This document shows positions 2,678 through 63,753 of a stretch of DNA of 64,000 bases, one piece after another. Source of the DNA: an uncultured Synechococcales cyanobacterium. GTDB taxonomy: Bacteria > Cyanobacteriota > Cyanobacteriia > Thermosynechococcales > Thermosynechococcaceae. Every line of letters starts with the position of its first letter. The first letter of the stretch is position 1. The stretch is from positions 1,308 to 65,307 of the forward strand of contig CADCWO010000103.1 in assembly GCA_902806435.1 (NCBI GenBank). Direction: 5' to 3'. The notes under the pieces are model-generated. The model was given only the letters and a program-made list of their open reading frames with translations, was not told where the DNA came from and did no database searches. A program made the position numbers and the translations under genes.

Positions 2678-3382
2678 ATGTTTCCCACTGTAATTCTTCC
2701 CGGCTATCTAGCAGGCGCAACAGAGTATCGCTTACTAGAACATGAGCTTAAGCAGCTTGGGTTTCCAGCCGTCACGGTTCCCTTACAGCGTCGAGATTGG
2801 TTGATCACAATTGGTGGTAGGCCAGTTACACCGATTTTAGACTTGTTGCACCGGACAGTCACAGGGGTATTGCGACAGTATCAAACGTCTCAAATCAATT
2901 TAATTGGCCATTCTGCAGGGGGATGGATTTCCCGCATTTACTTGGGTGAAAAACCCTACTGCGATCGCGTTTGGCAGGCTTGGCCCCATGTCAACACCCT
3001 AGTAACGTTGGGGACACCGCACCTCAGCCAAGAGCGCTGGACCCGCCGGAATTTAGATTTTGTTAATACAACCTATCCAGGAGCGTTTTACCGGCAAGTG
3101 CGCTACGTCTGTGTGGCAGGTAAATCCATCTATGGTGAGCGTAGTCGTCAGTGGGCAAAGTGGTTTTCCTATAAAAGTTATGAACTAACCTGCGGTCAAG
3201 GTGCGCGGTGGGGAGATGGAATCACGCCAGTTGAGGCAGCTCATTTAGCAGGCGCAGAAAATCTTGTTCTAGAAGGCATCATTCATTCACCAAAAGCGAC
3301 TCGCGGCCGCATGAACCTTATCCCTTCGGTTTGGTATGGTTCTCCAGAACCCCTTAGGATCTGGAGTGCATACTTAGCTTAG
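2678..3382 (+). CDS. alpha/beta-hydrolase, lipase/esterase-like
   Basis: A 234-aa protein starting straight into an alpha/beta-hydrolase core (VILPGYLAGATEYRLLEHEL). It has the nucleophile elbow G-H-S-A-G-G (LIGHSAGGW, Ser near residue 79). The GDGITPVEAAHLAGA and IIHSPKATRG regions near the C-terminus are in the right place for the acid and the histidine. The fold is that of cyanobacterial lipase/PGAP1-like hydrolases. The substrate cannot be inferred. There is no signal peptide, so it is probably cytoplasmic or membrane-peripheral. It converges with the antiporter gene, whose stop is 20 bases away. Confidence 0.85.
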   Translation: MFPTVILPGYLAGATEYRLLEHELKQLGFPAVTVPLQRRDWLITIGGRPVTPILDLLHRTVTGVLRQYQTSQINLIGHSAGGWISRIYLGEKPYCDRVWQAWPHVNTLVTLGTPHLSQERWTRRNLDFVNTTYPGAFYRQVRYVCVAGKSIYGERSRQWAKWFSYKSYELTCGQGARWGDGITPVEAAHLAGAENLVLEGIIHSPKATRGRMNLIPSVWYGSPEPLRIWSAYLA

Positions 3383-60503: not shown

Positions 60504-61478
60504 CTATCCGGTCTTGCCGCTGCCCATCAGGTATAGGAGCGCCATCCGCACTGCTACCCCATTCGTCACCTGCTGGGGAATCAAGCTGAGCCGGGGGTCA
60601 TCCATCAAGTCAGAGCTGATTTCAACCCCTCGATTGACAGGGCCGGGATGGAGTACTTTTACCTCCGGTTGGCAAAGTTTTAGGCGATCGCGGGTAATTC
60701 CAAAATACTGGTGATACTCGCGTAAACTGGGCAACAAATGCTGGCTCATTCGCTCTTGTTGCAACCGTAAAGTCATCACAAAATCCGCTCCTGCTAAGGC
60801 GGGTTCCAGTTGCCAGTGCAGTTTGGCACCGTACTCCGCAAACTGGGGCGGAAGCAGAGTGCGGGGAGCCGCTAGGTGAATCTCAGCGCCACTAGCCCTC
60901 AAGCTCCACAGGTTAGAGCGAGCAACCCGCGAGTGCAGCAGATCCCCAACAATCACAATTTTTTTTCCTTTTAGCAGCTCCAGCTGAGGCGTTTCTGGAT
61001 CAAGCAGCGAACAAAGTGTAAACAAATCCAGCAGTGCCTGGGAAGGATGTTCATGACGACCATCTCCAGCATTGAGCACCCCGACCTGCGCTCCCAGGTG
61101 ATCCATTTCCTGAGCAATGATCTGGGGCACCCCTGCCTCCCGGTGCCGAATCACCATTAGGTCTGCCCCCATTGCCCAGAAGGTCTTGGCGGTATCCAGA
61201 ATCGTTTCCCCCTTGGTTAAGGAGGAAGTTCCCGGAGAGAAGTTCAAAATATCTGCAGACAGACGCTTAGCGGCAAGTTCAAAACTGCTTCGGGTGCGGG
61301 TTGAAGATTCAAAGAACAAATTAGCAACCACCCGTGCTTGCAGCGTTGGTACTTTTTTGGTCCGCCGTGATAGAACTTCTCCAAAGCTGGCTGTTGTCTG
61401 CAATACAGCATTGTATTCTGCTGGGGTAAAGTCCGCTAGGGATAAAATATGGCGGCGCGTCCATGTTGCAGTAACCAT
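60504..61478 (-). CDS. pyrB: aspartate carbamoyltransferase catalytic chain
   Basis: A 324-aa enzyme of pyrimidine synthesis. Carbamoyl-phosphate site [16 protein letters not shown], then [20 protein letters not shown] (substrate loop) and [17 protein letters not shown]. It makes N-carbamoyl-aspartate. No regulatory chain (pyrI) is nearby. It ends 55 bases before moaE. Confidence 0.96.
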
Positions 61479-61797
61479 GTGCAGTTAAAAGGAGCGAGGG
61501 TTAAAACTGCTCAATCATAGATTATCTCGGCCGTAAACGACTGCCCTGTCAGTTTTCAAAAAATGAGTCACGGTTATAACTCATGAGCCTTAACGCCTAG
61601 ACGTTGGAGCTAATCTAGATGATTGCTACCAGGTAGAGAGCGGCCTGATCTTGCGCGCCATTGTCACTGCCCCCTGAGCCCTTATCTTCGGCCACAGCTC
61701 AACCCAGAATTGATAACTAAATTAGCCAATACGTCTGAATAGTTTGTCAGTTCAAGCCTTATCAAGAATAAGAGCTTATACCGGAGGTCTTAGTTGT
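61479..61797. other. intergenic, no gene seen
   Basis: About 320 bases between divergent pyrB and the next gene, with no protein frame or clear RNA. It must contain both promoters. GGAGG a few bases before 61798 serves the downstream gene. Confidence 0.4.
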
Positions 61798-62250
61798 ATG
61801 GCAGAAAATCGCATCAGTACCAGCCTTTCGCCAGCCGATCGCGAGGCAGTCCTGGCGGCAGTCAGCACTATTCGCGAAAAACTTCCGTTTCTGATGGATT
61901 TGACTGTGGAAGAGCGGCGATCGCTGCCCAAGATGGGCGATAAAAGTCGTGCCTTTGTCAGCAAAGCGTTGGAAGTGGCAACCCAAAACCCTGACTTCCT
62001 GCCGCGATCCTTCGACATTGAGGAAATGCGCCGCGACGTGGAACTGTTTCAGGCATTACACCCGATCCTACTATCCTTGACCCAACTGCAAGAGCTACTG
62101 GATGATACCTACCTGGCAGTGGGTAGTGACGCCTATACCGCGGGGCTAGTCGTTTACAACTACGCCAAGAATAGTGGTCAAGGCGCAGGTCTAGACGCGG
62201 TGGTTGACGAAATGGGCCGCCGGTTTGCCCGCAAATCACGGGGGACGTAG
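61798..62250 (+). CDS. conserved-looking helical protein, unknown
   Basis: A 150-aa protein, all-helical by pattern, soluble and acidic (TIREKLPFLMDLTVEERRSLPKMGDKSRAFVSKALEVATQNPDFLPRSFD; LFQALHPILLSLTQLQELLDDTYLAVGSDAYTAGLVVYNYAKNSGQGAGLDAVVDEMGRRF). Function unknown. I start at the ATG at 61798, since the frame from 61744 has no ribosome-binding site. It is the last chromosomal-type gene before the repeat region. Confidence 0.8.
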   Translation: MAENRISTSLSPADREAVLAAVSTIREKLPFLMDLTVEERRSLPKMGDKSRAFVSKALEVATQNPDFLPRSFDIEEMRRDVELFQALHPILLSLTQLQELLDDTYLAVGSDAYTAGLVVYNYAKNSGQGAGLDAVVDEMGRRFARKSRGT

Positions 62251-62298: not shown

Positions 62299-62380
62299 TG
62301 ATCCCCCCAACCCCCCTTGATAAGGGGGGCTTAATTTTGTAGAGCGATGACTTCACTTGCCCTGATTGCCCCTTGGATCT
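62299..62380 (+). repeat. C/G-run palindromic repeat, copy A (long form)
   Basis: An 82-base unit beginning TGATCCCCCCAACCCCCCTT, with GATAAGGGGGGC completing a hairpin and then a less conserved tail (TTGTAGAGCGATGACTTCAC, then CTGATTGCC and GGATCT). It matches copy D (63061-63142) along nearly its whole length. Confidence 0.9.
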
Positions 62381-62455
62381 TGAACGTTGGAACTTGGAGC
62401 AAAAAGCTCGACACTCCGAGTTCTAAGTTTGAAAGCTGGAGTTCACCCATTTGAC

Positions 62456-62492
62456 TGATCCCCCAACCCCCCTTGATAAGGGGGGCTTGACT
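62456..62492 (+). repeat. C/G-run palindromic repeat, copy B (short form)
   Basis: Repeat of the core only: TGATCCCCCAACCCCCCTT then GATAAGGGGGGCTTGA. The tail seen in copies A and D is absent. Confidence 0.9.
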
Positions 62493-62652
62493 CTCTAAAG
62501 GAGCGTTCGCACTAATCATCCTGAGACTAAATATGGCTTGCTATCATCACTACAGAGATTCGCGGGCACCAGTAATCTCTGTTCAGTGCTCTCCCAAATG
62601 ATTGCAAGTTGCCGCTGACTTTTTAGCTGTCCTGATAGAGTGTAAACGTCCA

Positions 62653-62690
62653 ATCCCCCTCTTTCTAAGGGGGGCTAGGGGGGATCCAAG
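62653..62690 (+). repeat. C/G-run palindromic repeat, copy C, next to the DUF559 start
   Basis: ATCCCCCTCTTTCTAAGGGGGGCTAGGGGGGATCC, just before the ATG at 62691. The G-run lies 7-12 bases before the start codon and could serve as the ribosome-binding site. Its right half (GGGGGGCTAGGGGGGATCC) differs from A, B and D, so it may be the left end of the unit. Confidence 0.85.
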
Positions 62691-63104
62691 ATGGCTTCTG
62701 AAAAGACCTGGGTTAATACAGACTTTCACTTGCCTTACAACCGAGAACTTGTAGAGCGTGCCAAAGTGCTGCGGAAAAATCCAACCCAGGCAGAAAAAAA
62801 GCTCTGGAACGACTACCTAAAAACCTTTGAACTCCGTGTTTTAAGACAAAGGCCAATTGACCACTTTATTGTTGACTTTTACTGTCCTCAGTTGAAGTTA
62901 GTAATAGAGGTCGATGGCGACAGTCATTTCACAGCCACAGGCCAAGATCGGGATACTGAAAGAACTAGAGTATTGGCAGGTTATGGGCTGAAGGTGCTCA
63001 GGTTTAGCAACGATGAGGTGCTGCACAATTTCGCCAGTGTGTGCCAGCGCATAGGAGATTTGATCCCCCCAACCCCCCTTAAAAAGGGGGGCTTGACTTT
63101 GTAG
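62691..63104 (+). CDS. DUF559 (Vsr-like) endonuclease-domain protein
   Basis: A 137-aa protein: LPYNRELVERAKVLRKNPTQAEKKLWNDYLK, then LRQRPIDHFIVDFYCPQLKLVIEVDGDSH (catalytic-core D-x-E-type residues) and TRVLAGYGLKVLRFSNDEVL. The DUF559 family has the fold of Vsr mismatch endonucleases and type II restriction enzymes. Its function is unknown. The start lies inside repeat copy C and its last residues (IPPTPLKKGG) are encoded by repeat copy D, so gene and repeats are one unit. Confidence 0.88.
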   Translation: MASEKTWVNTDFHLPYNRELVERAKVLRKNPTQAEKKLWNDYLKTFELRVLRQRPIDHFIVDFYCPQLKLVIEVDGDSHFTATGQDRDTERTRVLAGYGLKVLRFSNDEVLHNFASVCQRIGDLIPPTPLKKGGLTL

Positions 63105-63142
63105 AGCTATGGCTTCTTTACTTGCTCTGATTGCTCGGATCT
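63061..63142 (+). repeat. C/G-run palindromic repeat, copy D (long form), inside DUF559 3' end
   Basis: Same 82-base unit as copy A. Its left half codes for the DUF559 C-terminus on the plus strand, and its right half codes for the last nine residues of the acetyltransferase on the minus strand. Confidence 0.9.
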
Positions 63143-63753
63143 CGCCCGCTTTCTCGGTGCCAATCTGCTCGGTTCAGGCGATAAACGCAGCAATTGTCCT
63201 TACCGAACCGCCGGTGCTCGACAAATTGGAAGCCAAGACGTTCATAGAAGCGGTGAGCGCGGGTATTGCTGGCTAGCGGATCAATGAGTACAGCCATCAC
63301 AGCCGGGTCAGCGAAACAGCGAGCCAGGGCAAGCTGCATCATTTGCGTTCCATAGCCTTTGCCCAAATCGGTCTCTTCCCCGATCCAGATGTCAATGGCG
63401 CGCAGATCCGCTGGGACATTCCCCCAATAGTGGCTCTCTTCCCGTGCTGGATCGATGATCTGGACAAATCCGATAGGACGAGCATCAATTTCCGCAATCA
63501 ACTGCTCTCGCCAATCGGGGGTACGGTCAAGCTCCACCTCCCAGTTCCAGTCATCATTGGGATCTGAGGTAATCACGTGAGGTTGCTCATCCCAGTGTCG
63601 CAGCAGAGCCAAATCAGCAGCGGTAGCGGAGCCTAGGTGCAGCACAACTGGTTTATACGGCAAACTGACTGGAGTATTGACAATCCTTGGCCTAATAAGA
63701 CACAAGATCAGTTGCCGTGAGCGAGAGAACGGGTGAAGAGCACATGCGAGCAC
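63118..63753 (-). CDS. GNAT acetyltransferase, aminoglycoside 6'-N-acetyltransferase-like
   Basis: A 211-aa frame with a GNAT domain from about residue 40: LALLRHWDEQPHVI, GFVQIIDPA, then DIWIGEETDLGKGYGTQMMQLALARCF (acetyl-CoA loop) and VLIDPLASNTRAHRFYERLGFQFV. It resembles AAC(6')-Ib-type enzymes, which acetylate aminoglycosides or related amines, but activity is untested. The GTG at 63753 lies 5 bases from the attC-like site; a TTG near residue 32 is an alternative. The last residues (SGRDPSNQSK) come from repeat copy D, so the natural end was lost or replaced. Confidence 0.8.
   Translation of the reverse strand: MLACALHPFSRSRQLILCLIRPRIVNTPVSLPYKPVVLHLGSATAADLALLRHWDEQPHVITSDPNDDWNWEVELDRTPDWREQLIAEIDARPIGFVQIIDPAREESHYWGNVPADLRAIDIWIGEETDLGKGYGTQMMQLALARCFADPAVMAVLIDPLASNTRAHRFYERLGFQFVEHRRFGKDNCCVYRLNRADWHRESGRDPSNQSK

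Follow-up and report, generated by a model that had tools for sequence, protein, structure and literature searches.

Palindromic triplex-type repeats bracket a cyanobacterial DUF559 nuclease gene and accompany its relatives in many phyla

Introduction

Transposases of the IS200/IS605 and RAYT types act on DNA hairpins. BoxC/triplex repeats have been known in Escherichia coli for decades and, to our knowledge, neither a function nor an agent has been assigned to them. DUF559 is a widespread protein family which is still named as one of unknown function.

The closest described arrangement is that of RAYT with REP/REPIN, in which short palindromes are inverted around a single nuclease gene, form doublets and are dispersed in further copies, and in which one genome can hold several distinct gene-repeat pairs that coevolve (PMC3116915). 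For the repeat itself the closest description concerns the intrastrand triplex motif, whose E. coli name is BoxC or PIT element (PMC4666352). As described there, MG1655 has 23 copies of the motif, inverted pairs occur, variability around the motifs is high and they are abundant in cyanobacteria; the text connects them neither with transposons or phages nor with any known mobile element, and its section 19 states that the mechanism behind the motif-linked genome instability 'remains unclear' (PMC4666352). The E. coli protein YcjD was handled as a PD-(D/E)XK nuclease in 2005 (PMC1189080), and the literature found on this predicted nuclease reports no function for it.

Here we describe a cyanobacterial locus in which a DUF559 gene is set among repeats of this kind. 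The initial annotation proposed that the enzyme may act on the palindromes to move or copy the unit, in the way that RAYT proteins relate to REP sequences, and as a whole this interpretation is partly supported. No paper linking DUF559 to such repeats was found in the DUF559, ycjD, BoxC and triplex-motif literature, covered mainly as titles, the first lines of abstracts and open papers.

Results

The window, meaning the whole stretch of 64,000 nucleotides that was analysed, contains four C-run/G-run palindromes within about 850 bases, which flank and partly encode a DUF559 (PF04480) nuclease gene (62691 to 63104, plus strand, 137 aa) identified by profile match, alignment and structure model. 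A pattern search located all four where they had been annotated. Repeat A (62299 to 62380, plus strand) has a head at 62300 to 62308, a hairpin at 62311 to 62329 and a 3′ tail common to A and D, and repeat B (62457 to 62485, plus strand) has the head GATCCCCC and a hairpin at 62467 to 62485. Repeat C (62655 to 62686) is inverted, on the minus strand, with an imperfect hairpin at 62655 to 62674 and the head GGGGGGATC at 62678 to 62686, and repeat D (63061 to 63142, plus strand) has its head at 63062 to 63070 and its hairpin at 63073 to 63091. To the earlier observation can be added a polarity: the repeats read as a head, GATCCCCC(C), followed by AA or TAG and then by the hairpin CCCCCCTTNNNAAGGGGGG. 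Read on the other strand, C and D give CCCCCCTTNNNAAGGGGGG-TT/TAG-GGGGGG-ATC, the stem of C having one extra base. As A, B and D are forward and C is reversed, C and D bracket the DUF559 gene with their heads towards it.

The initial annotation had assigned the start region of the gene to C and the C-terminus of the protein to D, and both assignments hold: 4 nt separate the end of C from the ATG at 62691, and D lies inside the coding sequence, where it encodes the last codons (IPPTPLKKGGLTL). The 82 bases that A was said to share with D (62299-62380 and 63061-63142) are identical in 71 of 85 alignment columns. From 63118 the tail of D enters the 3′ end of a neighbouring GNAT acetyltransferase gene outside the unit (63118 to 63753, minus strand), and because the shared stretch reaches into this gene, A seems to have been copied from D together with the DNA next to it. 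Another ORF outside the unit lies at 61744 to 62250 (plus strand), of which 61798-62247 was searched and gave no Pfam match. The segment 61539-61658 of the window has a 78% identical copy 1 kb past the right window end (G000:C103:66357-66475).

When up to 2 mismatches are allowed, 17 pattern matches (both strands and registers) occur in the window, 15 at the four sites and 2 at a weak site at 61208, against 0.54 in shuffled windows (largest shuffle 5). Chance or low complexity is ruled out by these shuffles and by reversed-pattern controls, which gave 0-2 matches per genome. Across the whole genome, at one mismatch, the pattern finds the four sites and one weak match elsewhere, and PF04480 finds this gene alone, so that all good repeat copies adjoin the sole DUF559 gene; the assembly has 4,792,292 bases in 278 contigs and is 99.98% complete, and copies may have collapsed at contig ends. 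Since the copies are confined to this locus, no spreading is visible in this genome. Here the unit has the look of a single arrival, with one gene and four repeats, of which A would be a copy of D and neighbouring DNA.

The protein matches PF04480 at 97.1 bits (cut-off 20.6; E = 7e-28), the domain match covering residues 20-122 of 137. From 64 of 80 sampled loci with clean ORFs of 100-185 aa, 57 proteins were aligned with that of the window, and E35, D62, E73, D75, H79 and D88 are invariant in all 58. The AlphaFold model (mean pLDDT 84) is matched in Foldseek by 3HRL, a Neisseria DUF559 protein, by the I-Bth0305I domain (3R3P; Foldseek 3.4e-4, sequence E = 3e-5) and more weakly by Vsr (1CW0), in agreement with the Vsr-like fold first attributed to it. 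The protein belongs to Pfam DUF559, with a PD-(D/E)XK-like fold, and is not a Y1 (HUH) tyrosine transposase. It resembles the EDxHD homing endonuclease I-Bth0305I in nuclease fold and sequence, but I-Bth0305I is intron-encoded and described with extended DNA-binding regions (PMC3943268), whereas the window protein is about one nuclease domain beside repeats. Many DUF559 matches elsewhere lie within long open frames of 423-1817 aa from stop to stop, and some of these domains may belong to large proteins or have been inserted in frame into other genes. A viral origin was considered, and one relative was found among viral contigs. A defence island was considered and set aside, as PADLOC gave weak matches only.

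In sequence form, head and hairpin together make the pyrimidine-purine-purine version of the intrastrand triplex motif, on the minus strand in A, B and D and on the plus strand in C. In 307 of 361 repeats close to DUF559 genes, the third tract agrees with the stem of its own repeat, compared with 645 of 1805 when flanks are swapped in from other repeat types and 94 of 1805 when flanks are shuffled; for stems with a T between the C-runs the figures are 110/141 and 105/705 (swapped). At the level of sequence, the third strand has been shown to covary with the stem. The DUF559-linked repeats share with the BoxC/PIT/triplex motif the pyrimidine-purine-purine form, the inverted pairs, the many copies and the link to genome variability (PMC4666352). 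They differ in that BoxC is described as always intergenic in K-12, whereas repeat D encodes the end of the DUF559 protein, and in that the window repeats are tied to DUF559, whereas the BoxC paper names no associated nuclease (the word occurs 0 times in its main text; PMC4666352).

The pairing was followed in the best 80 of 162 loci encoding DUF559 relatives from named genomes, mostly of cyanobacteria but also of LCP-89, Zixibacteria, Kapaibacteria, Ignavibacteria, Gracilibacteria, Bacteroidota, Nitrospirae, Deinococcales and Aeromonas. Of the DUF559 ORFs, 74/80 have a palindrome no more than 300 bp away, compared with 84/646 other ORFs of the same loci, and palindromes lie on both sides of 50/80 DUF559 ORFs and 7/646 control ORFs; six of the 80 loci have none within 600 bp. 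Palindrome density falls from 4.5/kb within 250 bp (175 in 38.7 kb) to 0.109/kb beyond 1 kb (119 in 1087 kb), and the stop codon region is overlapped in 30/72 DUF559 ORFs and 3/772 controls. Where polarity was clear for both nearest repeats (36 of 81 loci, window included), the heads face the gene at 24. The ORF controls rule out Rho-independent terminators around any small gene.

A type-blind search, which assumed no sequence and looked for perfect GC-rich inverted repeats, found them near 131/147 DUF559 loci against 18/173 background windows (loops to 7), or 141/147 against 37/220 (loops to 12). These 147 loci are the window, the 80 named loci and 30 and 36 others from further collections, counted after removal of five duplicates and not de-duplicated between collections. 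Pyrimidines make up at least 85% of the 5′ arm in 363/391 repeats near DUF559 and in 6/47 of the background. DUF559 genes of many phyla have thereby been shown to have at their borders pyrimidine/purine palindromes that are accompanied by a third purine tract. DUF559 units that are 88-96% identical in different Nostocales end at palindromes.

The sequence of the repeat has also been shown to track the DUF559 protein rather than the host. Genome G064 carries four DUF559 paralogues, each with a palindrome of its own, and every one of these types is found again next to the corresponding orthologue elsewhere; as exceptions, two paralogues in G062 and three in G121 share one repeat type. Across 141 loci, protein identity and repeat similarity are correlated with a Mantel (Spearman) rho of 0.606, the largest of 999 permutations reaching 0.125. 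Repeat similarity is 0.80 between paralogues of the same genome (n=22) and 0.94 between best cross-genome partners (n=33). It is 0.913 in cross-phylum pairs with a protein identity of at least 0.6 (n=113; one locus, L082, left out) and 0.667 in same-phylum pairs with an identity below 0.4 (n=1627), so that host descent alone does not account for the covariation; host phylogeny as an explanation is weakened by the cross-phylum pairs and the same-genome paralogues alike.

Copy number likewise goes with the cognate gene. Among the 16 genomes of the G064 genus, those that carry a DUF559 type have a median of 25.5 cognate repeats against 5 in the others, and for a second type 11 against 2.5 (p = 0.003 each), while the crossed gene/repeat comparisons had no effect (p = 0.22 and 0.44); these p-values, like the one given below, are optimistic because genomes and loci are related by descent and the tests are without phylogenetic correction. 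The copy numbers in this genus are a double dissociation. A separate element of about 194 bp (L121 query 3151-3344) is present in G064 in over a dozen copies that are 93-100% identical, and also occurs in three other genomes. Among 89 genomes of the class to which the window belongs, the median number of repeat copies is 14.5 with DUF559 (n=54) and 0 without (n=35), although 8/35 of the latter keep at least 3 copies and one keeps 244.

E. coli offers the same comparison with ycjD. The window protein matches the NCBIfam model PRK09767 at 52 bits (E = 5e-14), below the curated cut-off of the model, and YcjD of K-12, encoded between fabI and sapF, is annotated as DUF559. Like the window gene, ycjD encodes a member of the DUF559 family, has a BoxC-type repeat downstream and has a hairpin over its stop codon; at its locus (L218) this related hairpin, at 2897-2919, overlaps the last codons of the CDS (2908-3261, minus). 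The repeat differs from that of the window in having CCCTCTCCC-type arms, and the upstream side bears another, AT-rich palindrome. This is a long perfect inverted repeat (TCACCTCATTCTGACAA...TTGTCAGAATGAGGTGA) directly before the ycjD start, unlike BoxC and possibly an operator.

A 40-nt BoxC repeat was found in 5377/5426 E. coli genomes at a median of 19 places, and the ycjD region is complete in 3362/5426. In 60 rows spread over the ranking, less one short, non-chromosomal-looking row (H360), genomes with ycjD have a median of 19 repeat places (13-25, n=37) and those without 5.5 (2-17, n=22; p = 5e-10), the fabI-side match itself being included in the count. Seven of the 22 genomes without ycjD have 13-17 places, which, together with the 8/35 genomes of the cyanobacterial class, indicates that repeats persist without the gene. 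Beside fabI, the three ycjD-less genomes read have genes for a TetR regulator and for RND efflux; they are not clean empty sites, and the presence of this other operon indicates that losses of ycjD are probably few and lineage-clustered. In genomes other than that of the window, the same repeats have thus been shown to reach tens to hundreds of scattered copies, and they are on the whole more frequent in genomes that carry the cognate DUF559 gene.

BoxC sites are polymorphic in E. coli. At pstA-pstB, the repeat is present in 16 and absent in 23 of 40 spread rows, with one match off-site. The filled allele has 92 extra bases, with ACACGGTT on both sides and a third copy inside, and the empty allele has a single ACACGGTT; these alleles fit an insertion that duplicated 8 bp, the alternative reading being a deletion between short repeats. 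A clean direct repeat was seen at this E. coli site only: at araD-araA the difference between alleles is 54 bases, with no clean duplication, and the partial alleles at phnP-yjdP end inside hairpins. Junctions inside hairpins are also seen in three Microcystis loci, where a common DUF559 island is followed downstream by 2 to 5 repeats, partly nested. In one cyanobacterial sample genus (g15), an orthologous gap measures 46, 63, 70, 116 and 196 bp in five unit-less genomes and elsewhere holds the gene with repeats, or repeats alone, with flanks too diverged for exact ends; of eight repeat sites examined there for clean empty sites, six were read and had flanks that were too diverged. At four g15 loci many repeats form inverted doublets whose two hairpins differ, as in REPINs. 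For the window locus, the flanks are not found together in the 58 genomes searched (own included), and with flanks not syntenic in relatives no target-site duplication was resolved. The initial annotation had called for a look at empty sites; insertion polymorphism is clear for the homologous E. coli repeats, but not at the window locus.

Discussion

We consider it probable that the unit consists of a DUF559 nuclease gene and its cognate repeat, in a RAYT/REPIN-like partnership built on a Vsr/EDxHD-type nuclease, with dispersal by the nuclease as the part that we infer. The nuclease would recognise and cut its own repeat, in hairpin, triplex or duplex form, while the DNA is being replicated or transcribed, and repair or template switching of the cut ends could copy the repeat to new places. 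Now and then a gene lying between two repeats might be copied too. The repeats would then be non-autonomous passengers of the nuclease, like the REPINs of RAYTs, and would decay once the gene is lost. The initial annotation would have been refuted by repeats with no association to DUF559 genes elsewhere; the association proved strong, two-sided, cross-phylum and paralogue-specific.

It is unlikely, in our estimation, that the repeats destabilise DNA by themselves as triplexes, with DUF559 as small cargo in a hotspot that plays no role in their spread. Such a reading would agree with the high variability and the lack of a known mobile element described around the motifs (PMC4666352), with the nested repeats of the Microcystis arrays and with the persistence of repeats in genomes lacking DUF559. 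However, other ORFs at the same loci are rarely bounded on both sides (7/646), and neither paralogue-specific repeat types nor a double dissociation would be expected of random cargo. Repeats placed right at the start and stop codons, and the likeness of the protein to the repair enzyme Vsr, could also point to a nuclease that binds the palindrome for autoregulation, or clears its structures in a Vsr-like repair, without any role in dispersal. We regard this as improbable, as it leaves unexplained both the insertion polymorphism and the tens to hundreds of dispersed copies, which rise with the cognate gene. That a third enzyme, a hairpin-acting transposase of the IS200/IS605 or RAYT type, moves both repeat and gene is very improbable, since the repeat type follows the DUF559 type across phyla and the nuclease encoded between the repeats has a different fold.

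The partnership of DUF559 nuclease and repeat resembles RAYT and REP in anatomy, as had been proposed, and departs from it in substance. RAYT is a Y1 (HUH) transposase, whereas the window protein is a DUF559 nuclease of Vsr/EDxHD type, and REP sequences are described as GTAG-tagged (PMC3733652), whereas the window repeat has a C-run head, GATCCCCC, in triplex form. With an enzyme of another fold and a repeat without the tag, the DUF559 unit is not a member of the RAYT/REP group. Dispersal through the host genome, as in REPINs, is absent from the genome of the window, where copies are limited to the locus and one weak match, but is seen in other genomes.

The recurrence of the pairing in many bacteria, E. 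coli among them, suggests that the BoxC/triplex repeats may be the partner sequence of the DUF559 nuclease, as REP is for RAYT. A broader proposal can be put forward tentatively, and may well prove too wide: that DUF559 proteins are a cross-phylum family of repeat-dedicated nucleases with an intrastrand triplex as substrate and a triplex sequence particular to each paralogue, which gave rise to, and sustain, the BoxC/triplex repeats of E. coli, cyanobacteria and others as a dispersal system unrelated to known transposases. Tying DUF559 to BoxC gives both a hypothesis that can be tested by removal of a single gene in E. coli K-12. If true, the REP-RAYT arrangement would have been invented twice independently, the second time with a different enzyme and perhaps with a different DNA structure for it to grip.
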